Assembly: GCF_037076525.1 (NCBI RefSeq)
Contig: NZ_AP029018.1
Span: forward strand, 2,216,501 to 2,280,500
Length of the DNA stretch: 64,000 bases
Source: Selenomonas sp. TAMA-11512
Lineage (GTDB): Bacteria > Bacillota > Negativicutes > Selenomonadales > Selenomonadaceae
Direction of reading: 5' to 3'
Position 1 is the first letter of the stretch. Every line of letters begins with the position of its first letter. Of the stretch, positions 28,540 to 58,788 are shown piece after piece. The notes under the pieces are model-generated. The model had not been told where the DNA came from and made no database searches. It worked only from the letters and a program-made list of their open reading frames with translations. The position numbers and the translations under genes are program-made.

Positions 28540-28827
28540 CTATTTCGTGACTGTCGGCGTCAGCGACTTTTCAAGCACTAACTTGATGCCCCACACCGCA
28601 CCTTGCAGGACCATCGGCAGGACAAACGCATCGCGCAAGTAGCACCAGCCGCTTTCCGTTTTTGCTTGCTCTTTCGTCTTGCCAACGAACTTATCAACGA
28701 CAACCTCGACGAACGGAATGCCTTCGTTGAGTATCGTGCGCGTGACACGCTGCTTGACTTCTTCTGTCACATTCTCGACATTGAGTTCTTTGACGATTGC
28801 GTCCCTGACGTCTGTCCACTTGCTCAT
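28540..28827 (-). CDS. Small phage protein of unknown function after the endolysin
   Basis: This 95-aa protein starts MSKWTDVRDAIVKELN behind GAAAGGAGA, has a charged helical N-terminal half and a moderately hydrophobic C-terminal stretch (FVLPMVLQGAVWGIKLVLE). I do not recognise a family. As the last gene of the lysis block it might assist release, for example as an accessory holin, but the hydrophobic segment is short. It is followed by a strong terminator. Confidence 0.7.
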   Translation of the reverse strand: MSKWTDVRDAIVKELNVENVTEEVKQRVTRTILNEGIPFVEVVVDKFVGKTKEQAKTESGWCYLRDAFVLPMVLQGAVWGIKLVLEKSLTPTVTK

Positions 28828-28896
28828 TTTATAAAATCTCCTTTCAGAAAGTGAAATGTATTTGAGTTTTCGATTTAATATTTCACTTTTATTTCA

Positions 28897-29424
28897 CTAA
28901 ATCATCTGCTCATAATCCGTTATCCCTCTCGCGACAGCCCTCGCAAATTCATCCTGCCGCTCTCTCAGCAGTGCTGCGTCGCCGGCATTATCAATAAACG
29001 CCAGTTCGACAAGCACCGCGGGCATATCCGTGCTTTTCAGCACCCAGAGATCCTTACGTGCTTTCAGACCGCGATCGACTGTTCCGAGGCTATCGACGAT
29101 CTGCCGTTGAATGCAGTCCCCAAGCTTCCTGCCAGCGTCGCTCCCGGGATACACGAGTACCTCCGTACCCTTTGCATTCCCGTTGAATGCGTTGCAATGG
29201 ATGCTGACGAAAATGTCCGCTCCGCTCGCGTTGGCCACACTCGTGATTGTATAGAGGTCGTCATCCTGCATGTTGCCGACGACTTCCACGCCCGCCGCTG
29301 TGAGATAGTGCTCTACGAGGTCAGCGACACTCTTTGCTACGTCGCACTCTCGGAGTCCGCAGCCGCATGCTCCGGGATCCGGAATCCCGTTCGGCGCATG
29401 GCCGGGATTTAAAAACACTTTCAT
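28897..29424 (-). CDS. N-acetylmuramoyl-L-alanine amidase (Amidase_3 endolysin)
   Basis: This 175-aa zinc amidase cleaves the bond between MurNAc and the stem peptide. Zinc ligands are visible as His9 (NPGH), Glu26 (LRECD) and His76 (SIHCNA), with the catalytic Glu in VLVELAFIDN. The ATG at 29424 is preceded by the near-perfect AAAGGAGGTGA, so the longer in-frame ORF (to 29553) is not the protein. No separate cell-wall-binding domain is present, as is common for phages of diderm hosts. No signal peptide is seen, so a holin is needed for export. Confidence 0.93.
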   Translation of the reverse strand: MKVFLNPGHAPNGIPDPGACGCGLRECDVAKSVADLVEHYLTAAGVEVVGNMQDDDLYTITSVANASGADIFVSIHCNAFNGNAKGTEVLVYPGSDAGRKLGDCIQRQIVDSLGTVDRGLKARKDLWVLKSTDMPAVLVELAFIDNAGDAALLRERQDEFARAVARGITDYEQMI

Positions 29425-29429
29425 TCTCT

Positions 29430-29567
29430 TCACCTCCTTTCCGGTCTGCACTTTTTCAAGTGCTCTTCCATTGCTCTGAGCTCCGGCACGAAGAATCCCG
29501 TTCTCGTTGCAATTGCCAAAAATGCGTAGTACTTCGACCAGAGCTCGCACCACTCAAGATTTGTCAT
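29430..29567 (-). CDS. 45-aa phage protein between holin and endolysin
   Basis: The reading frame MTNLEWCELWSKYYAF... runs to a TGA that overlaps the endolysin's Shine-Dalgarno (AGGAGGTGA). Its start lies inside the last codons of the holin gene. It has a Trp/Tyr-rich N-terminus and an amphipathic, basic C-terminus with no clear membrane segment or lipobox. I recognise no family; its place suggests a lysis accessory role. Length and composition resemble short phage proteins such as XkdX, but motifs do not match well. Confidence 0.65.
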   Translation of the reverse strand: MTNLEWCELWSKYYAFLAIATRTGFFVPELRAMEEHLKKCRPERR

Positions 29568-30027
29568 TTCCCCGCTCTCCTTTTTCGTTCTTGAGCTGTT
29601 CTAATGTATCGCATAGCTTCTGCGGCACCGGAACGCCGGAGTTTGCCGCGTTCTCGATAATTGATAGTCCTTCATTCCCGATATAGAACCAGACGATCAT
29701 CGTATGTACTGCCGATGTTCCCATTGCCGTGTCGATATAGTGCGCCAGTGCCACAATGCACAGAATAGACACCTTGCGTACAATGCCCAGTGCCCCCACT
29801 CGGCTACTTGGTCCCCTTTTGCTGTTAGGGTGTTTCCTCTTGTAGCGGTATGCTGCGAGGACGCCCGTCACATAGTCGATCGCCATCGCGACAAGCAGAG
29901 TCTCTACAAGATTATTCCACCCGAGCAAATGCCCTGCGATTCCGCCTGCGACGGAACACACCGCCCCCCATACCATCTGCATTTCCGTCGGGATCATTCC
30001 TTTTAAAAAAATCAATGCATCCTGCAT
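29554..30027 (-). CDS. Phage holin, TcdE/Holin_4 family
   Basis: This 157-aa protein has three to four hydrophobic helices: VWGAVCSVAGGIAGHLLG, VETLLVAMAIDYVTGVLAAY, VSILCIVALAHYI and an amphipathic last one, with the family pattern AIDYVTGVLAAYRYKRKHPNSKRG and IGNEGLSIIENAANSGVPVP. It permeabilises the inner membrane to release the amidase. The ATG at 30027 follows AAAGGAGA. The C-terminus overlaps the 45-aa ORF. Confidence 0.93.
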   Translation of the reverse strand: MQDALIFLKGMIPTEMQMVWGAVCSVAGGIAGHLLGWNNLVETLLVAMAIDYVTGVLAAYRYKRKHPNSKRGPSSRVGALGIVRKVSILCIVALAHYIDTAMGTSAVHTMIVWFYIGNEGLSIIENAANSGVPVPQKLCDTLEQLKNEKGERGNDKS

Positions 30028-30052
30028 ATGATCTCCTTTCCTCCGCCTTTCA

Positions 30053-30211
30053 TTATCCTTCGGCGTGTTCCGCAAGATGCATCGCAACATCTTCCCGGTA
30101 GATTGCCGGGACGACTTTCTGCCCCTCCGTTTTCTCCTCTTCGCTGTTCGCATATCTCCCCAGCCGGATGAGCTCTGCATAGATCGGAATCATAAACGGC
30201 TGCTTTTTCAT
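30053..30211 (-). CDS. 52-aa phage protein upstream of the holin (CD1375-like)
   Basis: The ORF MKKQPFMIPIYAELIRLGRY... ends 25 bases before the holin start and overlaps the preceding gene's stop by four bases. It has a good AGGAGGTG ribosome site. Its form (short, YAELIRxG followed by VPAIYREDVAMHLAE) is like the small CD1375-type proteins found between tail and holin genes in clostridial phages. The function is unknown. Confidence 0.75.
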   Translation of the reverse strand: MKKQPFMIPIYAELIRLGRYANSEEEKTEGQKVVPAIYREDVAMHLAEHAEG

Positions 30212-30543
30212 GCCTGTACACCTCCTTTCTGTGCCGACTCTATTCGTTCAACAGCTTCGTAAAGCCCGGCTACCGCTTCCAGTATTGACGCGTTTATATC
30301 TTCTGTTTTTGTATCTTCCGCCGATGTGTTGAGCACGTTGTCCGGCGGTGCGGAGACCGGCTTCCCAGACTCGCCGTCTCGAATGTAGCCGGTGCCATTT
30401 TCGCCCATGCCGTGCATTCCTACATAATGCTCCCAGTCATCCGCTGAAATCTGAATATACCCTTCCTTTTTCGCACTGCCTTGGTACGAATCCAGCAGAT
30501 GCCCTGCGTCGTCAAACAATGCTTTGTATCCTGCCTTTGCCAT
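30208..30543 (-). CDS. Phage protein of unknown function downstream of the receptor-binding protein
   Basis: This 111-aa acidic protein begins MAKAGYKALFDDAGHLLDSY, includes IQISADDWEHYVGMHGMGENGTGYI and ends with a helix (AVAGLYEAVERIESAQ). Its place directly after the receptor-binding gene suggests a tail-fibre assembly or accessory protein, but no domain is recognised. The ribosome site is AAAAGGAG. It overlaps the 52-aa ORF by four bases. Confidence 0.78.
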   Translation of the reverse strand: MAKAGYKALFDDAGHLLDSYQGSAKKEGYIQISADDWEHYVGMHGMGENGTGYIRDGESGKPVSAPPDNVLNTSAEDTKTEDINASILEAVAGLYEAVERIESAQKGGVQA

Positions 30544-30555
30544 ATTTTTCTCCTT

Positions 30556-31713
30556 TTAATTATCCGCGTACTTTGCGAGGCGCAGCCCGAGGTACGTAAG
30601 TGAGACCGTCGCGGCATAGTTCACAGCGAACGAGAACGGACCGCAGTACGTACCGTGTCCAAAACAGTCGCTCTGATGCAGCACGCTATTTGCCGCCGCC
30701 CACGCGTAATCCGCATATGTCGCGTTAACTTCCACAGCATCGGCAGTTACGGGAATAAAGACGTCTGCAAGGTCGTACGCTTCGCCTTTCGCTACGGATA
30801 CGTCCGTTATCCATCCGGCAGCTACAGTTACGTTTGTTTGCACGTATGTGCCGTCGCACGCGTTTGAGAATATCTGCGCTTTCCCCTCCGCGTCTGTTTT
30901 GAAACCGTCTGTGTGTTCCCATACGTTTCCCCACCACTCGGATAGACCGCGCCACTTCGCGTTGGACGTCCCCGTTGCGACTATCGTGCTCTGTGAACCG
31001 TTTCCGATTTCCGCTTGCATGTCTGTCGTCGCATACTCTATGAGCATGAGAAGCGAGATTGCCGCTCTCTCGTAGATTGTCTGCAAGTGCCATCCGCGTT
31101 TGTTCGGATCATTTGCATTTGTATTTCGCGCCGTGCAGCTGTTGATCGCACTTGCCAGCCCGCCGACGCTCACCCACGGTGTCTTCCCTGCCGCGCTTCC
31201 CGCTGCGCTGTCCGCGTTGTACGCTTCATACGCGCCGATGTAGAAGCAGCTCTTTTCTTCACCATTTCTGATAAACGCAGGATGCAAATGGTATCCCTCG
31301 CGCGGCTCTTTACTGATCCAGCGGCACTTGTTCTCGTACTTGTGATAGAACTTCGGAATCTTCACCATCGCCTGCCCGTCAAATGTAACCGCCTCTATCG
31401 CGTTCCACGGATAGAGCTCGTCAAAGTTTGGCCGTGGGATCATCCGGCCGGCTTTGTTGATGTGCAGCCATATGCCTGACTTCAAGCCCTCTTTCGCGAG
31501 CATGACGCCGACGACATCTTTTGCATCTTCTTTGAGTTCGTTGATGCTCTCATTAAGCGCATTCGTCTGCGCCGTGTTGAGTTCGTCAACCTCGGTCTTC
31601 GTGTACGTGTTTTCTGCGTGTACTTCTCCGAAGTATCCGGCCTTCCATTTCTTTTTCTTTGTTCCGATTGTTCCTTCGTCCATCGCACGCGGTACATAGT
31701 TTCTCGTCGCCAT
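30556..31713 (-). CDS. Receptor-binding protein with C-type-lectin (Mtd/FGE-like) variable-type domain
   Basis: This 385-aa protein has an N-terminal virion-attachment part with a coiled coil (residues ~35-75) and a C-terminal formylglycine-generating-enzyme/C-type-lectin fold: MVKIPKFYHKY, GLSEWWGNVWEHTDGF and a terminal block WAAANSVLHQSDCFGHGTYCG...YLGLRLAKYADN. That last block has the layout of the variable region of diversity-generating-retroelement (DGR) target proteins such as BPP-1 Mtd. The head genes of this phage are also BPP-1-like. No reverse transcriptase or template repeat is in the window, so diversification is unproven. Confidence 0.82.
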   Translation of the reverse strand: MATRNYVPRAMDEGTIGTKKKKWKAGYFGEVHAENTYTKTEVDELNTAQTNALNESINELKEDAKDVVGVMLAKEGLKSGIWLHINKAGRMIPRPNFDELYPWNAIEAVTFDGQAMVKIPKFYHKYENKCRWISKEPREGYHLHPAFIRNGEEKSCFYIGAYEAYNADSAAGSAAGKTPWVSVGGLASAINSCTARNTNANDPNKRGWHLQTIYERAAISLLMLIEYATTDMQAEIGNGSQSTIVATGTSNAKWRGLSEWWGNVWEHTDGFKTDAEGKAQIFSNACDGTYVQTNVTVAAGWITDVSVAKGEAYDLADVFIPVTADAVEVNATYADYAWAAANSVLHQSDCFGHGTYCGPFSFAVNYAATVSLTYLGLRLAKYADN

Positions 31714-31724
31714 TCTCTTCCTCC

Positions 31725-32435
31725 TTATTCCTTCGGCATGATATCGCCGTTCTCGTCGAGCTCGTAGTTGACATCGTAAATCGGCTCTTCGCTCGGCATA
31801 ATGTCGCCGTTTATGTCTACTTCGAAGAAGTCGATTTTAGCGACATTGATTGCATCAGTCACCTTCTTCACGTACTCGAGCAGCTTCGTCTCCGCTTCCA
31901 CAGCGTCTCGCAGTTCTTTCGATGTCGCAAGCGCTTCTGCCGCCGTATTCGCGGCGCCCTCCACTTTTTCCGACGCGCTCTCTGCACGTCTGGCAAACAT
32001 TTCCGCGTCTTCGCTCCCGCGCTTCAGGCGCTCGAAGAGCTCATCCGGAGAAGTCTCACTGACATAAGTTGTCTTGATACACCGTTCCAGTGCTTCCTCC
32101 TGCTCCTGCGTTATCTGCGTCAGCTTGTCCAACGAAGCTTCTATGGTCTCTGGCCACGCACCGCCTTGATTCGTGAGGTCGGCAAGCTGAGTCTTTTCCG
32201 TTACCCGATAGATTGTGATCATCTCTCCCACAGCAAGCGCCGGAGCCTCATTGAACTTGGGGTAGGTTAAGGTCAATGCGCCGGTATCTACCGTAAAATC
32301 GGTCTGAGCAATGACCGTGTCCTCTCCAAGCACAGCATAAATCTGATTTTTGTCTGTAAAGGCAAAGGTGATGGGGAAGGTCCTTGTAAGGCCGTTCCCG
32401 TTATACGTAGCCTTTACCTTAAGATTACTTATCAT
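31725..32435 (-). CDS. Tail-fibre/tailspike adaptor (T7 gp17 N-terminal-like)
   Basis: This 236-aa protein has the podoviral fibre-anchoring domain (GNGLTRTFPITFAF, TDFTVDTGALTLTYP, ITIYRVTEKTQLADLTNQGG, ETIEASLDKLTQITQEQEEALERCI; residues 10-120), then a long coiled coil (120-200) and a short C-terminal duplication of NGDIMP. It likely attaches the receptor-binding protein encoded next to the tail. It overlaps the giant protein gene by four bases. Confidence 0.82.
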   Translation of the reverse strand: MISNLKVKATYNGNGLTRTFPITFAFTDKNQIYAVLGEDTVIAQTDFTVDTGALTLTYPKFNEAPALAVGEMITIYRVTEKTQLADLTNQGGAWPETIEASLDKLTQITQEQEEALERCIKTTYVSETSPDELFERLKRGSEDAEMFARRAESASEKVEGAANTAAEALATSKELRDAVEAETKLLEYVKKVTDAINVAKIDFFEVDINGDIMPSEEPIYDVNYELDENGDIMPKE

Positions 32436-35400
32436 CGGCCACTCCTCCTTGAAATGAAGTCTGCAAGGGTAATGTCTCCTTTAGATATGGCGTCCCAGCA
32501 GTTTAGGGCCAGGGTGTTGATTTTCATTGGATAACCCACAAGCAGAGACGCAGTATCCGCTGTTTGTATGAGCGCTTTCCTTCCGGCATCCGGGTCACCG
32601 CCCTTTTTGATTAAGAAGTCGTACCATGCCGGTGGCGTTCCGAAGGTCTTTTCTATGGTCGTCTCTATAGGTGATAATTCATAGGAGCCGTATGTCCCGG
32701 CCATCTTGTTAAGGCCGTAGGATATGCCGCCGCCAACAATCGGAAACATCTGGAACGGGAAGGAAAGACCTGAAACAACACCGGACTTCACCGCCGATTC
32801 TTCCCTCTTTTTCGGATCCGGGTTCCGGTTATTGTTGAGCGCGTAGTTCATAATGCCTTCAATGGTCATCGGAATCACAAGCCCCATTACAATCATCCGG
32901 GTAAAAACCCGTGCCGCATCCATCGGTCGGCCATCCTCCATCTTGATTTGCGCCATTTTTGTATCAAACCAGATTCGATTGAACATGGAATTGAAGAAGG
33001 AATAGAAGGGCAGCATAAGCTTTGTTCCCTCACCGCCTCTCTGTATCTTAGACAATCCCGCCTTGCTGGTGTCCACACTTGAACGCCTTATCCAGCTGTC
33101 CGCTATCGTAGCTGCCTCCGTTTCACCCTTTCCTTCAGCGATTGCCTTAGAATACATGTGGATCCACATCGGATAATTGACCGCCATATCCGCCACCATA
33201 TCGCAGCAGAAGGCCGCCTTGACCAGCTTGTCCTTATCTATGCCAAGGACCGTATTCTTTTCAAACATGTGGTTGCGAAAGTCTGCCATATTCTGATCCA
33301 TGAAGGACGTCTTTTCCCGCATCATGGCAGACCGCGCATTTACAAAGTTAATCTTCTCCATGAAGTTACCGGTGTAAAATTCGCCCATACCCTTGATTAC
33401 GTTACCGGCTCCCATCTGCCAGCATGCAGTAACTACATTCTGAGGAAGATCAATTGCCAATGCCTTGACTCTAAAGCCCAGCATGGCCACAGACATTCTG
33501 GTGCGCAGCCACCGGGTTCCCTTCTCCAATACCGTCAGGCTTTCTCGCTGGTCCGCTGCAATATTAATCAGCCAGTCCTGCAGAGCCTTTGTCGTGCTGA
33601 CGCCGAAGCGGCTGTCAATTGCGGATATAAAATCCGGGTTCTTGATGATCTTATTAACATCGATGACCGGCTTGCGCATGGCCAGATCATAGTTTACGTT
33701 TTGAATATGATTGGTAAACGCTGACCAGTTCAAAAGAAGCGGCCGGTTGACGTGCGACACGCGCCCGCTGGTGTGCCCATGAGATGTCATAGCTGACGCC
33801 GTAGGATTAACCTTGAACAGCTGATTGGCCTCCTGCTGGTTCATGGTCACGATGGACTTTCCCGGGTCATACGCGATGGGGTAATATCCGCCCGACATGT
33901 CCATTATCACACCATCTTTGGTAAAGACCCTGAACGGAGTAGGCTCTACCATTTTCACGTCAAGTCCGGCGCAGTCGATTTCATGCTGTCTGATTTCCGG
34001 TGCATAGGTGTTGAGATAATCCCACACGCCCTGTACCAGTTTCCAGTGCTTTTCCTCCATCACAGAGAAGACCTGCATGGCCAGCTGATCTATCTGCTGA
34101 TTCTCCATCTCCGTCATTTTCATCCGTCGCTGCTCCGGACTCTTAAAGTAATACCGGAGCCTATCCCGGTTTCCTTCGTTGCCCCAGTTCATGGCCGCCA
34201 GAACGATCTCTTCCATGGTCAGATCATTCGGCAGGAAATCAAAGTGATGTTTTTCTCCCTTCATCTTCTCGATGGACTTGCGATCCCACCCCGCATCTCT
34301 TATCACTTTTTCAATGTCGGCGATGGACTTCCGGTTCCTGTGGTTCACGTCATCAAGGCCCCGAATGATAGGGTTGAAGATATACTTTATCGCCGGCCCC
34401 TGTTCCTCGCCCTTGTCGATAATTCTGAGCAGAGTCTCCGTCTTTACTAGAGAATTGATCGGGATGTCCACCAGCCGCCCCAAACGAGCCATCAGAGAAA
34501 GATCCTCCCGCCCCATCTCGGACTGGTTGGGATATCTATTTGTGAGTTCAATTGCCTTGCCTATGATGGCCTTGGTACGTTCTTTCATACTTGCCGTATC
34601 CGCATCCGACAGGGCGCGGTCCATCATCTTGCCGACATGCTGCAGGCTCTTGGCGCCGTCCTTAAGATCCCTGAACTCGTTGAGAGATAACCGGCTGTAG
34701 TGCTTTGCCTCACCCTTGACAATGCTTTCCGGAACAATTGGCACGAAGTAATTTTCTCTGCAGCTTTCAATAAACGCAGCCAAAGGAGCCGGCGCCGAAC
34801 CGTCCACCGGCGTGAGCGGCTCATGGCTTAATAGGCCATACTTCGCCAGCAGGTTATCTATTTGGACATTGAAGTTATGGTCAATACTCTTTTCGTTCAG
34901 GTTACGCTTGTTGATCTTACCAAAGAAGCGCATACCGACCTGAATTTCCTTTTCAGCTTTCATGGCCTGCATGGCCATAGCCCGCTGCAGGAGTTCTTCG
35001 TCCTTGAAAATAATAGCCAGGTCATAGTCGCCCTTGGCCATGGCACGAGTGGCCTTCTTGCCGGCCCTGGTTGCGGCCGCCAGCATTTGCCGCCACTTTC
35101 CCGCCTCAGCTATTCGCTGGTTGCCGATGGTTTCCTTGGCTATTTCCCTTGCTACCTTGGCCTTCAGCTTGCCTTGTTGAACCTCCGCGGCCTGCCGTCT
35201 GGTATCTCTGGCCTGTTTTTCCTGCGCCTTCGCTACCGCCTTATCCGTACGTTCCTGCGCTTCTCTCGCCTGCCGGGCCTTCTTACGGCCCTCAGCCATA
35301 GCCTCCGCAGTGGCCTTTTCATTCTTCGCTCGGAGCTCCTTCGCAGCATTCCTCAAAACCTCAGCCTCAATGCCAATAGCCTCCAGCGTCCTTTCACCGG

Positions 35401-38400
35401 TTACCATCTGCACCGCAAGGTCCTGAATATTCCCCAGCTCCTGCTCCTTCCACTTCGCCATTCTCGCATCCACGCGGTCCTTAAACTCAGCGGCATAAGA
35501 CCTGTTATTAAGAACGGCCTGTCGGAGTTCGTCCCCGGACTTCATACCGACAATGTCGGCAATATCGTCAAGGGTCCACTGACCGTCCTTGGTAAACCAG
35601 CGCTGTGGCATTTCGGCCACGGCCTTTTCGCCATAGGTCTCAACCGCCTGCGCCCTATTAAGCTTTAAGCCACCCCCGTTTTCCTTCACGAAGTCCGCGC
35701 CCAACACGCCCTCCGGTACGGTTCCCCCCTTCTTTGCTTCCATAAGAAGTCTTGCCGCATAGAGGGGTTCCCGATGCATGGCTGCTTCTGTCAGGAAAGT
35801 AACCTTGGCCCGTGCTTCCTTTTCCAGTTTTTTAAACGCAGGTGAGAACTCTTTCAGAATACGCTGCTCCATCTTCTTCCGGGCTTCGCGATGTGCATCC
35901 TCCAGCAGCTTGGTGTAGTCTTTCATCTCCTTGAGGCCCAGCTCCTTGCCACCAAAGAGACGTTCGGAGTTATAGAACAGTTCCGCGGCATTGAGTTGTT
36001 CCTCGGATGCCAGCATACGGTCAAACACCTGACGGATGTCATCGTTAATCGGCAGTTGCTGGCGTGTCAGGGTATTGTAAATCTTCTTCATCCAGCCCTT
36101 GAACTTCTCGAAAATACCCACCAGCTCCAGCGAAGGCGCCTTGCCTTCGGAGAGGTAAGCCTCAAAGGCGGAGGTAACCTTCTCTTGCTGGGAGGCGGTC
36201 CAGGATTCTCCATCCTTGGCACCCACAAAATTATTGAGGGTCCGGAAGTCTTTTACAACATCCTCGGATGCCCGCCCAGTCTCAATGGCCTGCTGATATA
36301 GGTTTACAAAGTGGTGCATCATCTCATGTGGCAGGGTGCTGTAATTGGCATTTTTGTACAGCTCAATAATGGCCTTGCCCTGTTCTGCCGGGATGTATGC
36401 GCCGGTGATTTTGGCAGTGTCAAGCGGTCCGCCGTTTGCCTTATTTTCGTCTTGCAGAAGCGGATTTTCTAAGTGAAGTTTTATTGTTTCTTCTTTACCG
36501 TTGACTCCGAATAATTTATCGTGTATACTACGAAGTGAAAACGGATTCCCAACAAAATTCGAGGGCCTGGATTCGTCCAGGAGGCTCGTGTTGGACCCGT
36601 TTTTTTTCATCCAATTATCAATACCGGCATCACTATCAAAGAATGCTGTTTTAAGATAACTTTTGCCATTAGGTAACACTTCGTAACACACGCCGGCGTT
36701 ACCTAATGGCGTTTTTATTTTTGCTAAAACAGGTACGCCATTGTAATCCCCCTTAACATTTTCATCCAAATAACCGTCAATGAAGTTTTCGCTATTTTTT
36801 TGAATTGCGCCCCATTGTTTTTCCGTGAGGCCGTGCCTGTTATCAATATGCATCGCGTCATCATGAGCAAGTGCTATACGCGATCCTTGCGTGCCGTTAA
36901 ATTCATATTTGATTTTCCCCCTACCATCTTCCGTAAGCACGGTTCCTTTAACTTTCTTAAAAAAGCTATATAATCCGTCCGCTTTTACAAGCTTCATTGC
37001 TTGAAGCAATGTCTGGGCAGATGCCCGTTCATCGGCAATACGGGCAGGATCATAAGCCTCGCGTCGAACCACGCCCAAATTGTCCATGGCCTCGGAAACA
37101 TCCTTGTAGCCCAATACTTTGAGCAGACCCCGGTCCTCGGCTCTGGTAAACATGGTATGAATCAGGTTCGCCTGACCTTCTATGATACGTTCAGAGGCAT
37201 CCGGATATACAGAACGAACGTAATCCACGGCCTTTTGATAGGACGGAGATTCCTTGTCGATCCCCTCGCCCTTGGCCATTTCCTCTGCCTGCTTCTGAAG
37301 CTCTTTGAAATACTCGGTGGTTTCCGCGATTTCCCGGTCCGTAAATTCGCCCATGCGAACGTCCTTGGCCAGACCTTTGATATGCTCGGTACCGGAATAT
37401 TCCTTGATAAAATCAGAGGTTTTTACGTTGATGTCCTGTCCCTGCTGCAGCGCTGTTTGAAGCTCTTCTTCCGTAACTCCCAACTTCTTGGCTTCCGCAG
37501 CCGCCCGGTTCACATTTTCAGAGTCTATCTCCTGAAAATACGCCACGAACTCCTTGGCCGGAATACCGACCGTCTCCAGCTTGGAGCCTTCCACTATTCC
37601 GCCGATCATGTCCCCGATAGCGTTCTTTGACCGCCTGGCGGTCTTTGTTTCGCTGACCGCTTTATCAATAGCATTCAATGCATCCGCGGTACTTGTCGCG
37701 GGCCGTGAGCTCTCCGGTGCCTTAGGCATAACGGTGCGCAAAGCCGCACCACCGGCAAGAGTCACACCGGACAAGGTAACCGCGGTAGGAACAAACTCGG
37801 TTGTAGCATGGAGTATCTGCTCCGCGGCTCCCGGTTCGTCGCTGTGGTCAAATTCCAGCCCGCTCAGCTCCTCGGCCGTCTTACGTCCGGCCAGTTCCAC
37901 GGCTTTGGTGCCGCCGCCGAAAATGAGTGACTGTTCTGCTGTGGACTCGGCAAGATTCTTCACAAATACCTTCCATGCCGCTTTCTTCGTTTCAGGATTA
38001 TTCAGAACGGCTTCGGGGACCGCGCCCTTAAATGCGGCATATACTTCCCCGGAGGCCGGTATTCTTGAAAACAATCTGGTTATCCCGCCGGCACCGAGAA
38101 CGGCATTGCCGCCGCCCGCGAGCAGCGCGCCGTAATATGCGCTGTCCGCGGACATATACCGACCGTCTGCGCTCTTTTCACCAATGCTGTCAAGGTATTG
38201 GTTACCCATAGCGCGGGCGCCCATTGAATATGCCAGTCCGCCTCTAAATCCAAAGCCGAATCCGGTCAGAGCTCCCGGTATTGCCCCGACACCGGCGCCG
38301 GCTAAACCCACCCCGGCGCCGATAGCTGCCCCGCCCGCACCCGTAACGAGACCAGCCTCCACGTCATTGGCCATACCGGCAATGCCTCCGATAATATTGG

Positions 38401-39142
38401 CCATGTTCCAGCTGAACGGGTTATACCATTTGCTTTCCGGGTCCTGATATTTTTTGGCAAGCTCCTCCCTGCGCTTGTTGATGTTCTCCAGCTCCACCCG
38501 CTGATCCGCGGTAATGGTTGTCATATCCTGACCGTTGTGCATCATTTCCCGGCCGATCTCTGACCTCCTTAACTCAATATCCGCCAGCTCCAGATGGTCC
38601 CGGACACTTGCGACAGTATCCTCTACAAACTTCAACGGCTTAATATCATCCCACGACTGGGCCATGTTCTTCTGGTCTGTCAGATATTTGGCCGTGGCCG
38701 GATTATCCGCCACAAAAGTATCCCAGTCCTCCGGACTGTTCTGTTTCTGCCTGGCCGTCTGAAGCGCGACGTCCATAAGCTCACTGTCCGTTATGCCGCT
38801 CTGAATCAGAGCGCGTTTCTGCGCGTCGTCATGTATCCCTAAAATGCCGGCGGCTTCGTTTAACCTGGCCGCTTTTTCGGTATCCGTCTTCTGCATGGCA
38901 TTGCCGGCATAGAGTGCCGCTACCCTGTTCCTAATTTCCTGATTATTATTGGCATAGGCATCGGCAAGCTCGGGGCTGTAAGAAGAAGGACCGGAGCTGA
39001 ACATTTTACCGATCCTATCAAAAATACCGCCGCTTGTATTTGCCTCGACGCGCTGCCGAACTTCTTCAGCCGATACCTGCACGCCGGTATCTTTGTCTAT
39101 GTATATTGTCCCCTGAGCGGTTTGTCGTGCTATTACTGGCAT
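32432..39142 (-). CDS. Giant (2236-aa) polyvalent internal virion/ejection protein
   Basis: This single 6.7-kb gene is in the position of a T7 gp16-type ejection protein. Visible parts: a helical N-terminus; a Gly/Ala-rich, membrane-like stretch at about 245-355 (GAGGAAIGAGVGLAGAGVGA); a small nuclease-like domain at about 715-850 (HDDAMHIDNRHGLTEKQW and PVLAKIKTPLGNAGVCYEV) of the phage PBECR type; a zincin-like HEMMH at about 939-943; long charged coiled coils (1080-1420); and a C-terminal ~500-residue region with TM-like helices and PLxRFG-like phage patterns. It is probably packaged in the head and injected with the DNA. Individual domain activities are inference. Confidence 0.85.
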   Translation of the reverse strand: MPVIARQTAQGTIYIDKDTGVQVSAEEVRQRVEANTSGGIFDRIGKMFSSGPSSYSPELADAYANNNQEIRNRVAALYAGNAMQKTDTEKAARLNEAAGILGIHDDAQKRALIQSGITDSELMDVALQTARQKQNSPEDWDTFVADNPATAKYLTDQKNMAQSWDDIKPLKFVEDTVASVRDHLELADIELRRSEIGREMMHNGQDMTTITADQRVELENINKRREELAKKYQDPESKWYNPFSWNMANIIGGIAGMANDVEAGLVTGAGGAAIGAGVGLAGAGVGAIPGALTGFGFGFRGGLAYSMGARAMGNQYLDSIGEKSADGRYMSADSAYYGALLAGGGNAVLGAGGITRLFSRIPASGEVYAAFKGAVPEAVLNNPETKKAAWKVFVKNLAESTAEQSLIFGGGTKAVELAGRKTAEELSGLEFDHSDEPGAAEQILHATTEFVPTAVTLSGVTLAGGAALRTVMPKAPESSRPATSTADALNAIDKAVSETKTARRSKNAIGDMIGGIVEGSKLETVGIPAKEFVAYFQEIDSENVNRAAAEAKKLGVTEEELQTALQQGQDINVKTSDFIKEYSGTEHIKGLAKDVRMGEFTDREIAETTEYFKELQKQAEEMAKGEGIDKESPSYQKAVDYVRSVYPDASERIIEGQANLIHTMFTRAEDRGLLKVLGYKDVSEAMDNLGVVRREAYDPARIADERASAQTLLQAMKLVKADGLYSFFKKVKGTVLTEDGRGKIKYEFNGTQGSRIALAHDDAMHIDNRHGLTEKQWGAIQKNSENFIDGYLDENVKGDYNGVPVLAKIKTPLGNAGVCYEVLPNGKSYLKTAFFDSDAGIDNWMKKNGSNTSLLDESRPSNFVGNPFSLRSIHDKLFGVNGKEETIKLHLENPLLQDENKANGGPLDTAKITGAYIPAEQGKAIIELYKNANYSTLPHEMMHHFVNLYQQAIETGRASEDVVKDFRTLNNFVGAKDGESWTASQQEKVTSAFEAYLSEGKAPSLELVGIFEKFKGWMKKIYNTLTRQQLPINDDIRQVFDRMLASEEQLNAAELFYNSERLFGGKELGLKEMKDYTKLLEDAHREARKKMEQRILKEFSPAFKKLEKEARAKVTFLTEAAMHREPLYAARLLMEAKKGGTVPEGVLGADFVKENGGGLKLNRAQAVETYGEKAVAEMPQRWFTKDGQWTLDDIADIVGMKSGDELRQAVLNNRSYAAEFKDRVDARMAKWKEQELGNIQDLAVQMVTGERTLEAIGIEAEVLRNAAKELRAKNEKATAEAMAEGRKKARQAREAQERTDKAVAKAQEKQARDTRRQAAEVQQGKLKAKVAREIAKETIGNQRIAEAGKWRQMLAAATRAGKKATRAMAKGDYDLAIIFKDEELLQRAMAMQAMKAEKEIQVGMRFFGKINKRNLNEKSIDHNFNVQIDNLLAKYGLLSHEPLTPVDGSAPAPLAAFIESCRENYFVPIVPESIVKGEAKHYSRLSLNEFRDLKDGAKSLQHVGKMMDRALSDADTASMKERTKAIIGKAIELTNRYPNQSEMGREDLSLMARLGRLVDIPINSLVKTETLLRIIDKGEEQGPAIKYIFNPIIRGLDDVNHRNRKSIADIEKVIRDAGWDRKSIEKMKGEKHHFDFLPNDLTMEEIVLAAMNWGNEGNRDRLRYYFKSPEQRRMKMTEMENQQIDQLAMQVFSVMEEKHWKLVQGVWDYLNTYAPEIRQHEIDCAGLDVKMVEPTPFRVFTKDGVIMDMSGGYYPIAYDPGKSIVTMNQQEANQLFKVNPTASAMTSHGHTSGRVSHVNRPLLLNWSAFTNHIQNVNYDLAMRKPVIDVNKIIKNPDFISAIDSRFGVSTTKALQDWLINIAADQRESLTVLEKGTRWLRTRMSVAMLGFRVKALAIDLPQNVVTACWQMGAGNVIKGMGEFYTGNFMEKINFVNARSAMMREKTSFMDQNMADFRNHMFEKNTVLGIDKDKLVKAAFCCDMVADMAVNYPMWIHMYSKAIAEGKGETEAATIADSWIRRSSVDTSKAGLSKIQRGGEGTKLMLPFYSFFNSMFNRIWFDTKMAQIKMEDGRPMDAARVFTRMIVMGLVIPMTIEGIMNYALNNNRNPDPKKREESAVKSGVVSGLSFPFQMFPIVGGGISYGLNKMAGTYGSYELSPIETTIEKTFGTPPAWYDFLIKKGGDPDAGRKALIQTADTASLLVGYPMKINTLALNCWDAISKGDITLADFISRRSGR

Positions 39143-46389: not shown

Positions 46390-47391
46390 TCAAACTACAC
46401 GGGCCTCAGCGTTCAGGAGTGCGTCGACACGGCGAACGGGGATCCCATCGAACATGGTAACCATCTTGCCGCCCACCGTCTCCTGCGTGAGCTGGTATAC
46501 CGTCTTGTTCATCATCTGGCGGCGCAGGAAGCTGCGGATAGTCTTGTTGCACAGGAAGGTCAGACGAGTGCTGCCCTCTGCATTGGTCGGCAAAAGCTCC
46601 TCCGCTTGTACCAGCAAGTCAATGAGGTCTGCACCGGCAGAAGCATTCTTGGTCAGGTCGCTTACGTCAATGTTGGCGATACGCACCACGTATCTCCAGT
46701 CGCGAACGCAGAGCCCGCAGTCCCACTTGTAATGTGTACGGTACCCCTGATACTTGCCGCCGTTCTTATCAAACAGCGTGATGCCGTCGGGTTGCCCCTT
46801 AGATAAGTCAGTATGGGAAATACCGGCCTTCAGGCCCTTTGGATAGATACCGAATACGGTATTGGGCCCCCAGCCTACTAGATAGATGGAGGTGTTATCG
46901 GCACCGGTACCGCCGGCGTCAATAACGTTGCCCGCACTGGGCGCGCCGGAGGTTACGCCATAACGGGGCGCAAATCCCACAAACTGCTCCGGCTTGGACT
47001 TATCGCCATACATCAGGGTACGGCAGAACTCCTGATTCATTGACTCGAGGAATGCACGGTCCTCGGACAGACGGAAATCCGCGGTGTTACCGTTGAGATC
47101 AGCCAGAGCCTTATCAATTTCAGAGTACGCCTCCAGCATACCGCAGGTAGCCGTAATCTGCTGGGTTGCGGACTTGCTGTCCTGCACGCCATAGTTCAAG
47201 AGCCTCCAGGTTACATCCGGAAGGCCCGTACGAACAGTTGTCTTATGACCGGTCGGCAGATTGCCCTCCTGCCAGTGCATATCCTGAAGCACCTCATTTG
47301 TGCTGGTCAGAATCTCCGCGATTTTGTCGATCTTCCCCTGCGGGTCCTCACGACGGGCAATGTCCTGTAAAGTTACGACTGCATCAGACAT
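46390..47391 (-). CDS. Major capsid protein (BPP-1 type, HK97 fold)
   Basis: This 333-aa protein has TLQDIARREDPQGKIDKIAEIL, a shell domain with WRLLNYGVQDSKSATQQITATCGMLEAYSEIDKALADL, an E-loop-like region and FLCNKTIRSFLRRQM with GIPVRRVDALLNAEA at the end. It sits between scaffold and cement genes. Codon use is regular, as for highly expressed phage genes. Confidence 0.9.
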   Translation of the reverse strand: MSDAVVTLQDIARREDPQGKIDKIAEILTSTNEVLQDMHWQEGNLPTGHKTTVRTGLPDVTWRLLNYGVQDSKSATQQITATCGMLEAYSEIDKALADLNGNTADFRLSEDRAFLESMNQEFCRTLMYGDKSKPEQFVGFAPRYGVTSGAPSAGNVIDAGGTGADNTSIYLVGWGPNTVFGIYPKGLKAGISHTDLSKGQPDGITLFDKNGGKYQGYRTHYKWDCGLCVRDWRYVVRIANIDVSDLTKNASAGADLIDLLVQAEELLPTNAEGSTRLTFLCNKTIRSFLRRQMMNKTVYQLTQETVGGKMVTMFDGIPVRRVDALLNAEARVV

Positions 47392-48055: not shown

Positions 48056-48410
48056 TCTCTATTTCCTCCTTCATCTTCTCCAGTTGCGCAGCTTCCTCCT
48101 GAGCAGCTTTCGTGTGCTCCGCCCGCATAAGCTCATAGGCTTCCGGCTTGGCTTCCATGATGTCCTGCATGATCCGGATGCCGATATCCCGCTGGCCTTC
48201 ACGGAAAGCCATGATCATGGAATTAGCGTCCATGGACTTGTCCATTACCTTGCAGAACGAAAGCACACGCCAAACATACCGCCTAAAAACCGGATGCTCC
48301 AGCAACAGCTTCAGGTCATTGACGACCCTCTCTCTCCGCTGACGTTCCAGTTCATTGAGGGCCTCCTGCTCCTTTGCATGCCCGTCCCACATTGCGCCCA
48401 TACTAAACAC
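48048..48410 (-). CDS. Bbp19-like phage protein
   Basis: This 120-aa helical protein has LEHPVFRRYVWRVLSFCKV, FREGQRDIGIRIMQDIMEAKPEAYELM and a terminal coiled coil, matching the Bbp19-type family of BPP-1-like phages. It is encoded between portal and scaffold and overlaps both by eight bases. Its role in the head is not known. Confidence 0.8.
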   Translation of the reverse strand: MFSMGAMWDGHAKEQEALNELERQRRERVVNDLKLLLEHPVFRRYVWRVLSFCKVMDKSMDANSMIMAFREGQRDIGIRIMQDIMEAKPEAYELMRAEHTKAAQEEAAQLEKMKEEIENG

Positions 48411-50088
48411 CGTTTACACCTCCTAACCCGGTAATAGCTGCCAGTGCATTGTTGTCATCCAGCTTGGCGTCGGACAGTGTCTTGGCACCCTGCACCATAG
48501 CGCCCATATCCTGCGCCATCTGCTGTTGCTGCGCCGCCTGCTGCTTCTGCTGGCGGATGTTTTCAATCGCATCACGGGAGCGGATACACTTGGCCGGCAT
48601 ACCGTTGGCCTGCATGTAGTCAATGGCAGCCTCGTCAATGTCCACCACGTCCAGAACATCCGGAAACAGTCCGGCAACAGAACCGATAAAGCCAAGGCTC
48701 TGCTGAATGGAGGTCGTGGCCACCATCTGCTGCGCCTGTGCCAGTATGCTGATAAAGTTTACCTTCAGCATCTGGGCATTGAGCTCCGGGGGCGGCGGCG
48801 GGATAAGTCCGCCGCGCATCATGATGTTGAACACCCGCTTGATAAGCGGCGCGTGGAGCTCCTGGTTCATGGATTCCAGCACCGGGCCCAGGTTCATCAT
48901 CTTTTCCTCGTGCTTCTCCACGACCTCACGGGCCGTTATCGGCTGCGTCTGTTCACTGTTGAGGATCATCTTGAACAGGTCGACGTACATCATCTCGTCA
49001 ATGCGCTGCTCTGTCCGCTGGACATAGGAGCTCAGGGAGTTGAAGTCTATATTCACCTGGTACGTTGCTCTTGCGCCCGCATCCGCGCCGACAGCCACCG
49101 GATCAAAAGGATTCACGCCGCCCGGCATGGTGTTAACCGCCTTGACCGTACCGCTCACAGAAACCGGAGGGTCAACCATCTTGGCCAGGCCCATGAGCCC
49201 CCGGCGCTCCATTTCCTGCAGCGACTTCTGATCACCCATGGCGTACATGGCCGGAGAGACGCCGTATATATCGCTGGTCTTGGTCACCTCCCAGCGCGGC
49301 GCAATGATGGGAAATTCATCGTAGCCGCCCAGCCGCAGCACCGTATTAGACCCCTTGCCCGGTATCCAGTAGACCGACCGGTACGGCTTGTTGGCAAAAT
49401 CCCTCTGCCCCTTGATCCGGTCATCATTCGGCTCAATGATGTGATGCACCTGATATATCCGGTTCAGCTCGTCGCGTTCGTATTTGTCCCTTACCTCCTC
49501 CGGGCAATTATCCGATCCGAATACATTGACCAGCTGAGCCACACTCATATCCACGCGCCGGGCAAAGGTGTTCACCAGACCATACTCATCCACATCGAGG
49601 TAATATTGTCCGCAGGTCAGGCTTTTGCAGTTGAACACCCGGTCAAAGTTCTCCTCCACCGGGGCGGCCGCCGTGCCGAACAAGAGCAGCTCACTGTACA
49701 TCATCGGCAGTATCTTGTAGATGTTGCTGGTATTGAGGACTGCATATATCCTCGTCTCCACATCATCCAGCCACGCCATGACAGCCGCATCCTTGGCAAG
49801 CTCCGGATCACCCACGGTCAGCTGGAACCACGGTCGGGACGGGGAAGTCAGACCGGAGTGCAGGCCCGCCGCGGATGTCCGGAGCGCCCGGATAAACTTG
49901 TTGTTGAGTATCCGCTTATGGTCTATCCTGCGCGCCTGCCGCACGTCCTCCCCGCTGAAAAAGCCCCGGGTAGGGTTCCCCCATTGCTTGAGGTCCTTCC
50001 ATACTGGAATCCAGTTCTCCGCATCCTGCTCCATCTGCTTGAACCGTGACGCGATCTTTTTTCTGTTTTCAAACTCCATAGCCATCAT
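48403..50088 (-). CDS. Portal (head-to-tail connector) protein, podovirus type
   Basis: This 561-aa portal has GNPTRGFFSGEDVRQARRIDHKRI, LHSGLTSPSRPWFQLTV, the SELLLFGTAAAPVEE clip region, PAMYAMGDQKSLQEMERR and TAREVVEKHEEKMMNLGPVLE, all typical of the T7/BPP-1-like connectors. The Gln-rich C-terminus (about 515-540) is a barrel-like tail. It forms the dodecamer that DNA passes through. It overlaps both neighbours by a few bases. Confidence 0.92.
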   Translation of the reverse strand: MMAMEFENRKKIASRFKQMEQDAENWIPVWKDLKQWGNPTRGFFSGEDVRQARRIDHKRILNNKFIRALRTSAAGLHSGLTSPSRPWFQLTVGDPELAKDAAVMAWLDDVETRIYAVLNTSNIYKILPMMYSELLLFGTAAAPVEENFDRVFNCKSLTCGQYYLDVDEYGLVNTFARRVDMSVAQLVNVFGSDNCPEEVRDKYERDELNRIYQVHHIIEPNDDRIKGQRDFANKPYRSVYWIPGKGSNTVLRLGGYDEFPIIAPRWEVTKTSDIYGVSPAMYAMGDQKSLQEMERRGLMGLAKMVDPPVSVSGTVKAVNTMPGGVNPFDPVAVGADAGARATYQVNIDFNSLSSYVQRTEQRIDEMMYVDLFKMILNSEQTQPITAREVVEKHEEKMMNLGPVLESMNQELHAPLIKRVFNIMMRGGLIPPPPPELNAQMLKVNFISILAQAQQMVATTSIQQSLGFIGSVAGLFPDVLDVVDIDEAAIDYMQANGMPAKCIRSRDAIENIRQQKQQAAQQQQMAQDMGAMVQGAKTLSDAKLDDNNALAAITGLGGVNGV

Positions 50089-55868: not shown

Positions 55869-56260
55869 GATACACCCTCCGCCGGCTTTTCAGTCCTCAA
55901 GTCATACAGAACGCAATTCTCCTCGTCTGGAACATCTATCCAGTACTCAATGCCGCGCTCTTTCGCCCACTCTATGAATACTTCTTGAAGCGCATCGCCG
56001 AGCACTTCTCTATCATTCTTTGACACATTGTCAAGATATCCCTCATAGCTGCCCGCGCATTCATTGTCGACGGCTTCCTGCAAGTCTTCTATCAGTACGT
56101 CGTGCCAGATAGATGGAACGAATTCATTTGTCTCTGTGATATATACCGTCTTTTCCATCGGCTCATTCGCTCTCGCCGTTTCGAGAGCGTCTTCTATCGT
56201 CTCAAAGCCCGTGTAATAGCCGTCGTCGTGCGGGTACATATACGCGTATCTTCTTTTCAT
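55865..56260 (-). CDS. Acidic phage protein, paralogue B (flanks ssb)
   Basis: This 131-aa protein is a diverged homologue of the 124-aa protein at 55,098-55,472 (shared VYI....EF, LIEDxQ..(V/L)D.E and VFIEWAKERG....YDLRT blocks). It is acidic, with no recognised domain. It lies between the helicase-methyltransferase and ssb and overlaps both by four bases. A gene duplication around ssb is implied. Confidence 0.8.
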   Translation of the reverse strand: MKRRYAYMYPHDDGYYTGFETIEDALETARANEPMEKTVYITETNEFVPSIWHDVLIEDLQEAVDNECAGSYEGYLDNVSKNDREVLGDALQEVFIEWAKERGIEYWIDVPDEENCVLYDLRTEKPAEGVS

Positions 56261-58788
56261 GATACAGACCTCTCTTTCCCCTCGTCCTCGATAAAGTCAA
56301 AGAGCGTCGGTGCACTGCGTTTCTGCTCTTCTACTTTGAGATATCCGACACCGTCTCTGAAATAATCCGGATTCAGCTCCGTTGCCATGCCGCGCCGTCC
56401 GAGTTTCAAAGCGCAAATCGGAACGGTCATCAGCCCGCCAAATGGGTCAAAGACCATGTCGCCCTCGTTGCTGTACCGCTCAATGAGCCGCTCTACAATG
56501 TCGAACTGTAACGGGCACACATGCAGCTGCTTGCCCTTTTGCGCCTGCAATGTGTTCATCGTCCGCATGCGGTTGATGTCGTCCCAGACTTCATCCGTCC
56601 AGCTCCCCGGAGCGACAACCATGAACGTCGCCGGCAGCTTTCTGTCTTTGTCGAGCTTCTCCGCCATTTCGACGTGCTCTTTGTAGTCATAGACGCTTTC
56701 GCGGCTGTACTTGCGATAGACGCGCTGGAGGTCGGTCACCGGGAATTTCATGACTTCTTCTTTCGTGAGAGGTCTGTCTCCGCTGCTCCGCCAGTAGCCG
56801 TGCGCGTCAATCTGCCAGCGTCCGCGCGTATAATCCTCTTTGCTCTTCTTGACGGGCGTATCCGCATACGCTTTGGATGTATCTGTCGGCAGCTTGCGGA
56901 ACAGCAGAATGTATTCCGGGCACCCGACACCCATCTTGCTTCCGTCCTTGCACTGCTCTGTCCATCCGAGTCGGTACGTCTGATTGTTCTCACGCACGAC
57001 GTCCGTCACGACGGTAATCATGCCGAAATACTGAAATCCGTGCTTCATGTAGTGTTCGATGCAGAGCGCATGGAATGGCTCGATGGTCGGCATTCCCGTT
57101 CCCGTCGCATTGCCAAATAGCACGCGATCCTTGACATGGCACGCAAACACCCGGCCGGGCTTTAAGATACGCAAGAGCTGCGGGCTTAGATAGTCCATCT
57201 GCTCAAAGAATCGCGCTGTATCTTCGTTGTGACCGAAGTCGTTGTAACTCGCCGTGTACTCGTAATGATTCGAGAACGGAATAGACGTCACAATCTCATC
57301 GACGGAGTTCTCTTTCATCTGCTTTGTCTCTTCGATGCAGTCATTGTGTATAGCTGTCCATCCTTCGCCTTTTACTTCCACACGCATCACTCCTATGCTT
57401 CGTCCCATCTCAGCGGCCGCATTCGCGCCGCCTAGCCCATACTCTTTGATAATATCCGCCATCTTCTGCGCCAGCTTGTTGTATTGCGTCCACTTGCGCT
57501 GTAAGACCTTCAAAATTTCCTGCTCACTGTCCATGTAGATAATGTCCACAACGACCTTCTCCGGCTGTAAGAAGCGATGACAACGATGAATCGCCTGTAT
57601 AAAGTCGTTGAACTCATAGTCAATGCCTAAGAATATCATCCGATGACAATGCCGCTGGAAGTTGCACCCACTCCCGGAGAGCTCTTTCTTCGTCGCAAGC
57701 AGTCGAAATTTGCCGTCAGAAAAGTCGATCGTGTTCTTCTCTCGTATGTCCATGTCCTGCGAACCGTAGATTTCCTTCGCCTCCGGCAACGCCCTCTTGA
57801 TTGCCTGACGCTCTGCCTCGAGGTCATGCCAGATGATGAAGTGATCCTCCGGCGCTTCGTCGACAATCTGCTTCGCTTTCGCCATCCTCGCATCGATACT
57901 CTTGCGCTTCTCATACGCAGCTTCTTTGAGCCCGTGCGCGGCGTCTTGAAATATCTTGATCTGTCCGTCTTTCTCTTCCGTGAGCTCTGCCGGACGTCCG
58001 AGCTTATGATAGCGCACCTCGAGTTCGGGCAGGTCGTAGCCCGTATCGTCATAGCCGAGGTTCGACGGCTTCTGGATAAAGAGCGCCCACGTCGAGAGCC
58101 ATAACCAGAACTCTTTTTCCTTGTGCGGATAGAGCGTCAGATTATTCGCCTTTGTACTGTCGCGTTTGAAAAACCGGGTAAGCGCGAGTCCCGTATCCAT
58201 GATCTCAAGATAGCCCGCATAGTGAATGAGCTCCTTGTACTTGTTCGGCGATGGCGTCGCTGTAGATACCAGCTTATACGGCACGCCGCGAAACTTCGCA
58301 AGAAACGTCTGATATGTCTTGCTTCCGAAAGAGCGCAATACCGCCGCCTCGTCAAGACTCGTCCCCGAGAATGCATCCGGTCGGATGTCTCCATCACGGA
58401 TACGCTCATAGTTCGTTATCATGAGCCAGCCTGATGTAGCCTCCACCTCCGCCATGTTGCGGACGTAGACAGGCGCGTCTATGTGCAGAAGCATTTCCGC
58501 GTCGCGCATAAACTCTTGTTTTACGCCCAGCGGGCAAACGATGAGCATCTTCCCGCCTTTGTGCTCGTGTATGAGTCGGCACCATTCGAGCTGCATGATT
58601 GTCTTGCCAAGCCCGAAAGCAGCGAAGATTGCCCTGCGCCCGCCACGAACTGCCCACATGACCGCGTCTTTCTGGTGCGGCTTTAGAATATCGCTGATTT
58701 CTTCTCTCGCGATGTCAATGCCCGTTTTCTTTGCAATAACCATTTTCGACTTCAAAAAGCCGATATAGTCCTTTTCCATTCCACTCAC
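56257..58788 (-). CDS. Fused SNF2-type helicase and DNA methyltransferase
   Basis: This 843-aa protein has an N-terminal superfamily-2 helicase: Walker A FGLGKT (58-63), a LDEAA motif II (145-149), and QAIHRCHR motif VI (398-405). The C-terminal part is a beta-class N4/N6-type methyltransferase with motif order IV then I: motif IV reads SIPF (502-505) in place of (D/N/S)PP(Y/F), and the SAM motif is VFDPFGG (779-785) followed by GRRGMATELN. It lies in the early operon. It may modify phage DNA against restriction, with the helicase acting as a translocation or replication-coupled module. No restriction nuclease domain is seen. Confidence 0.85.
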   Translation of the reverse strand: MSGMEKDYIGFLKSKMVIAKKTGIDIAREEISDILKPHQKDAVMWAVRGGRRAIFAAFGLGKTIMQLEWCRLIHEHKGGKMLIVCPLGVKQEFMRDAEMLLHIDAPVYVRNMAEVEATSGWLMITNYERIRDGDIRPDAFSGTSLDEAAVLRSFGSKTYQTFLAKFRGVPYKLVSTATPSPNKYKELIHYAGYLEIMDTGLALTRFFKRDSTKANNLTLYPHKEKEFWLWLSTWALFIQKPSNLGYDDTGYDLPELEVRYHKLGRPAELTEEKDGQIKIFQDAAHGLKEAAYEKRKSIDARMAKAKQIVDEAPEDHFIIWHDLEAERQAIKRALPEAKEIYGSQDMDIREKNTIDFSDGKFRLLATKKELSGSGCNFQRHCHRMIFLGIDYEFNDFIQAIHRCHRFLQPEKVVVDIIYMDSEQEILKVLQRKWTQYNKLAQKMADIIKEYGLGGANAAAEMGRSIGVMRVEVKGEGWTAIHNDCIEETKQMKENSVDEIVTSIPFSNHYEYTASYNDFGHNEDTARFFEQMDYLSPQLLRILKPGRVFACHVKDRVLFGNATGTGMPTIEPFHALCIEHYMKHGFQYFGMITVVTDVVRENNQTYRLGWTEQCKDGSKMGVGCPEYILLFRKLPTDTSKAYADTPVKKSKEDYTRGRWQIDAHGYWRSSGDRPLTKEEVMKFPVTDLQRVYRKYSRESVYDYKEHVEMAEKLDKDRKLPATFMVVAPGSWTDEVWDDINRMRTMNTLQAQKGKQLHVCPLQFDIVERLIERYSNEGDMVFDPFGGLMTVPICALKLGRRGMATELNPDYFRDGVGYLKVEEQKRSAPTLFDFIEDEGKERSVS

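Follow-up and report, generated by a model that had tools for sequence, protein, structure and literature searches.

The tropism-switching cassette of Bordetella phage BPP-1 (mtd-avd-TR-brt) places its receptor gene, mtd, after a fibre gene with a T7-type N terminus (bbp9) and before the lysis genes, with avd, the template repeat (TR) and the reverse transcriptase (RT) gene brt following mtd. In this phage, efficient retrohoming requires a hairpin located after the variable region (VR), with a GRNA loop of 4 nt (PMC3240598). A further DGR, complete and located in a Thermus aquaticus prophage, encodes TaqVP, a C-type lectin of the FGE subtype with a solved structure (PDB 5vf4, PMC6328139). Surveys of DGRs by design miss VRs that do not adjoin an RT (PMC8144416), and because they start from the RT, targets that have outlived their retroelement are invisible to them. 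A limited literature search, which is not proof of absence, found no description of a DGR target lacking both RT and TR. Here we describe a receptor gene of this kind in Selenomonas sp. TAMA-11512. It lies within a stretch of 64,000 nucleotides, referred to below as the window, that carries a BPP-1-type phage with the following features.

46390..47391, minus strand: major head protein; its top match, at 60% identity, is BPP-1 Bbp17
48403..50088, minus strand: portal (head-tail adaptor), 40% identical to BPP-1 Bbp21
31725..32435, minus strand: fibre adaptor of 236 aa and equivalent of BPP-1 Bbp9, with T7-tail N-terminal similarity
30556..31713, minus strand: receptor protein, 385 aa, with a podovirus-type N-terminal anchor and a C-type-lectin DGR variable-protein domain
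31453..31713, minus strand: anchor/coiled-coil of the receptor, residues 1-87, with the MATRNYVPRA... motif and, in the model, a helix at 39-66
30559..31452, minus strand: C-type-lectin domain (FGE subtype), residues 88-385, homologous to DGR variable proteins
30589..30669, minus strand: former VR, residues 349-375, at positions matching the Asn codons of relatives' template repeats
30572..30591, minus strand: 3' end of the VR, IMH-like, CTCGGGCTGCGCCTCGCAAA; it still matches the IMH in relatives that carry DGRs
30544..30558, minus strand: junction 3' of the receptor stop codon, with the Shine-Dalgarno sequence and start of the next gene
30208..30543, minus strand: small protein, 111 aa, not a component of DGRs; members of its family adjoin unrelated receptor tips elsewhere among phages
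29554..30180, minus strand: holin (Phage_holin_4_1), part of the shared module
28897..29553, minus strand: N-acetylmuramoyl-L-alanine amidase (endolysin), part of the shared module
28540..28827, minus strand: phage protein of 95 aa with no assigned function, at the edge of the shared module

The major head protein, portal and tail genes are homologous to those of BPP-1 and occur in the same order, which places the phage among BPP-1-type podoviruses, in agreement with the BPP-1-like head genes noted in the first-pass annotation. The order of T7-N fibre, receptor and lysis genes is likewise that of BPP-1, minus avd-TR-brt. Also encoded in the window are a 2236-aa protein (32432-39142) that is partially similar to BPP-1 Bbp10 and weakly matches the large-polyvalent-protein domain LPD22, and an 843-aa protein (56257-58788) whose matches are to phage DNA helicase families along most of the protein and to DNA methyltransferase families near the C terminus. 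The 111-aa gene was considered as a relic of Avd and rejected, given that it has no Avd match and that its relatives adjoin unrelated tips.

The receptor protein ends in ...VLHQSDCFGHGTYCGPFSFAVNYAATVSLTYLGLRLAKYADN. This C-terminal end has the VR and IMH layout seen in DGR proteins that are accompanied by a TR, as had been proposed from the sequence, and the gene has kept the IMH at the 3' end of its VR. No Pfam family was found for the protein, and PHROGs labels it a tail protein. Its AlphaFold model (pLDDT 89.6) retrieves TaqVP (8.8e-14), TvpA of Treponema (2.5e-5) and FGE-type folds as the best solved structures in Foldseek, with Mtd a weaker match placed lower. By sequence alone, a profile of 36 homologues matches TaqVP at E=2.2e-46, whereas hhalign aligns the Mtd variable region over the receptor VR at an E of 0.027 and with low probability. 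The model, the Foldseek matches and the profile all indicate a C-type-lectin fold with the VR at its C-terminal end, the architecture of DGR variable proteins. The initial description of an Mtd/C-type-lectin receptor is thus correct as to the lectin, but the protein is nearer to TaqVP than to Mtd. Its position and fold suggest that it functions as a receptor, and from the fold it is predicted that the exposed former variable residues still enable the tip to bind a ligand on the cell surface.

Homologues of the receptor in Selenomonadaceae genomes and IMG/VR contigs, with identities of 41-61% among the closest, have an RT ~0.5-1 kb downstream of the gene. Both RT and TR are found beside the gene in all 16 homologues with at least 35% identity and at least 2 kb of downstream sequence. 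An RT is close by in 49 of 85 loci, although many of the RT-less loci end too soon after the gene, and records such as L100, L101 and L113 may be fragments. In 48 of these 49, a scan tolerant of mismatches solely at A positions of the candidate template identified a template with no more than 8 non-A mismatches. The template repeats of relatives typically show 0-2 non-A mismatches over 90-100 nt, and their TR/VR pairs differ almost solely at TR adenines. The RTs resemble BPP-1 Brt (1e-37 to 1e-56), and a PF00078 search is positive in 9 of 12 relatives or records, unlike in the orphan's genome.

Three copies of the receptor gene occur in this genome (see below), and in a tree calculated without the VR they form one group (100/100) inside the DGR-bearing clade. 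Their sister (100/96) is L065, from a Mu-like phage (IMGVR_UViG_3300037400_000632), which is also the closest homologue, with a lectin domain 61% identical to that of the window receptor. It is a 619-aa fibre that shares the VR layout and the GLRLAKYAD end with the window receptor and belongs to a complete VP-Avd-TR-RT cassette, comprising an NF033474 Avd, a TR free of non-A mismatches over 90 nt, an RT and a GATA hairpin, whereas the window gene has none of these parts. The tail of the L065 phage is Mu-like (Baseplate_J, Gp48), in contrast to the BPP-1-type phage in the window. By tree, fold and VR layout, the receptor is a C-type-lectin DGR variable protein by descent. Together with its homology to proteins of intact DGRs, this bears out the initial view of an orphan DGR-type lectin receptor on a BPP-1-like phage.

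The VR also appears to carry a record of past mutagenesis. Compared with the TRs of 12 relatives, the VR of the orphan differs at 61-74% of A positions and at 30-45% of non-A positions, with the 12 p-values not independent because the templates used are those of relatives and akin to each other. In the rest of the domain, which served as a control, the two rates are alike (33-45% at A and 36-40% at non-A). The nine codons 350, 353, 356, 363, 365, 366, 370, 372 and 374 correspond to Asn in the consensus template, and in the orphan the consensus template-Asn codons encode C, H, Y, A, N, Y, V, L and Y, in every case with C or T at the third position. A C or T is thus present there in 8 of 8 changed template-Asn codons, compared with retention of a pyrimidine third base in 47-52% of changed NNY codons in the core. 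This retention is consistent with AAY codons in which the first and second bases were rewritten. Viewed through the templates of relatives, the pattern is indirect evidence that the VR was probably written by adenine-specific mutagenesis in the past.

The genome searched is complete, a single contig of 2.59 Mb. There is no PF00078 (RVT_1) match in the window or in the complete genome, and no genome match at E<=1 to a profile of 14 DGR RTs. For Avd (PF22296), nothing in the genome scores above threshold, as the best match (E=0.15) fails the cut-off and contains a stop. A BLAST search of the whole genome with the 405-nt 3' block returned solely two further full copies of the gene and short chance matches, and an adenine-tolerant scan identified no TR in the window or in the stretches around the other two prophages. 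In the genome, the IMH pattern is mismatch-free in the three genes alone, and other matches carry 3 mismatches. No stem of at least 6 bp follows the VR in any of the three copies; most close relatives have a GRNA-loop hairpin 16-38 nt after the stop codon, as does BPP-1. At the junction where relatives place the GRNA-loop hairpin, Avd, TR and RT, the Shine-Dalgarno sequence of the next gene directly follows the stop codon in the window. Two pattern scans of viral contigs, for the orphan's own ending and for the upstream block, gave no matches.

Of the parts of a functional DGR, the genome has the IMH and lacks RT, TR, Avd and GRNA-loop hairpin. The earlier observation that no RT or template repeat is visible in the phage therefore stands for the window, and the genome-wide search for an RT with a matching template repeat, which had been suggested at that stage, found neither, the near-repeats being the two additional gene copies. 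That the retroelement might lie beyond the right edge of the window is refuted, because the complete single-contig genome has no RT. Given that neither RT nor TR was found in the genome, the site would no longer be rewritten by retrohoming.

The two further full receptor gene copies (967821-968978, plus strand, and 1348828-1349985, minus strand) are both in other BPP-1-type prophages, whose head genes are merely 32-38% identical to those in the window. The three prophages share a module of receptor, 111-aa protein, holin and amidase (3.2-3.4 kb, 91-92% identical), with identity reaching as much as 98% further downstream for one of the two prophages and low or no DNA similarity outside it. The module extends over 28540-32435 in the window, 12067-17001 in L022 and 1335-5262 in L023. 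Relative to the L022 copy, dS in the receptor gene is about 1.0 over codons 88-204, 0.01 over codons 205-348 and 0.9 over codons 376-385, and such abrupt changes of divergence within the gene are a mark of recent recombination. The receptor is under purifying selection, with dN/dS of about 0.1 over codons 88-348. The three VRs differ at 3 codons (357, 363 and 364), with 3 nonsynonymous and 0 synonymous differences, too few to test; two are at codons of the template-Asn/Asp type and one (GTG/GCG) fits no template adenine. This absence of silent differences could hint at rewriting of the VR after the copies diverged. The VR nevertheless appears to be frozen at present, as judged from three copies in one genome, and homologous recombination of the module would now be the sole visible route for exchange of receptor variants.

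We consider it very probable that this is an orphaned DGR variable protein acting as a fixed receptor tip, with a lectin domain captured without its retroelement and a module that spread among three prophages. In this scenario, a lectin domain of DGR-target descent would have been joined to the receptor anchor of a BPP-1-type prophage, leaving hairpin, Avd, TR and RT behind. The VR would then have been frozen, as retrohoming would have ended without RT and TR, and the module of receptor, holin and amidase may subsequently have moved among three divergent BPP-1-type prophages by homologous recombination. Residues 1-30/40 of the receptor are common to non-DGR receptor genes of other Selenomonadaceae phages. 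Furthermore, the MATRNYVPRA..EGTIGT motif, the 111-aa family and the adaptor end together flank unrelated tips (L171, L172, L173 and L174) in other phages of Selenomonadaceae, some with Mu-like baseplates and some with a T7-N adaptor. The same flanks surround quite different tips, and the locus is therefore a swapping place for receptor tips; at such a site, capture of the lectin domain from a DGR fibre without the retroelement is the simplest history. The main rival is that a BPP-1-type ancestor had a complete DGR here and that hairpin, avd, TR and RT were deleted once before the module spread, with the same end state. BPP-1 indeed carries avd-TR-brt at exactly the syntenic site between mtd and the lysis genes, and all three copies have their junction in common. 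We nonetheless regard deletion in place as possible but somewhat unlikely, since the 111-aa gene, 3' of the stop codon, is a constituent of the receptor locus in phages whose tips are unrelated, the nearest relative with a DGR is a phage of the Mu-like type, and the head, portal and tail proteins in the window match no compared DGR-bearing locus except BPP-1. Judged from this one genome, capture is the likeliest history. The earlier suggestion that the retroelement was lost is thus right about the outcome, but the flanking modules point to capture without it rather than deletion in place.

Diversification in trans by an outside DGR (on a plasmid, a co-infecting phage or a sister strain) appears very unlikely. 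Remote-target DGRs do occur within the same protein family: the distant homologues L064/L084 (with L145), L110 (with L146) and L121 (with L147) have a matching TR beside an RT far off, with 0-3 non-A mismatches, on the same record or in the same genome, one case being a Devosia elaeis prophage (L064/L084). These loci were considered as further orphans and rejected, as their TR and RT are elsewhere on the record or genome. The preserved IMH and the exclusively nonsynonymous VR differences, two of three at template-Asn/Asp type codons, are also what action in trans could leave. However, with no RT or template in the genome, and no Avd above threshold, the DGR would have to come from beyond the assembly; the hairpin by which BPP-1 retrohomes more efficiently (PMC3240598) is absent, the VR copies are almost identical, unlike active VRs, and the GTG/GCG difference does not suit a template adenine. 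Action in trans within the cell, as raised in the first-pass annotation, is accordingly nearly excluded. It is highly improbable that the uncoupled receptor, within a recombining receptor-lysis cassette shared by co-resident prophages, still has its VRs occasionally rewritten by an RT and template arriving from outside the cell's genome. FGE-fold domains are widespread outside DGRs, and PvdO, FGE and EgtB are among the Foldseek matches of the receptor, so an ordinary FGE-type lectin tip could resemble a VR protein by chance or shared fold. That this tip was never in a DGR is scarcely credible, however, given that the receptor nests inside the DGR-bearing clade, preserves the IMH, and shows both the adenine fingerprint and third-base retention.

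The orphaned lectin domain can be set beside the described systems. The window phage has head and tail gene kinship with BPP-1, and both have a receptor of lectin fold with a C-terminal VR. BPP-1 has avd, TR, brt and the hairpin, which the window lacks, and the similarity of the receptor to Mtd is barely detectable by sequence (only over the Mtd VR) and weak in Foldseek. TaqVP, the best solved structure by profile and by fold, is 17% identical over the structural alignment and, unlike the window receptor, part of a complete DGR. In Pseudogulbenkiania, the own RT of distal DGR targets has decayed and a second genomic RT is thought to serve them (PMC3521204). Those targets, like the window receptor, lost their own RT, whereas the Selenomonas genome keeps no RT whatever. 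The receptor described here is a clear example from a complete genome, for which intact DGRs in relatives, the fingerprint of past mutagenesis and the absence of cis and trans parts are all documented. It opens to testing the benefit to a phage of freezing a diversified receptor, and whether recombination between co-resident prophages then takes over the exchange of receptor variants.
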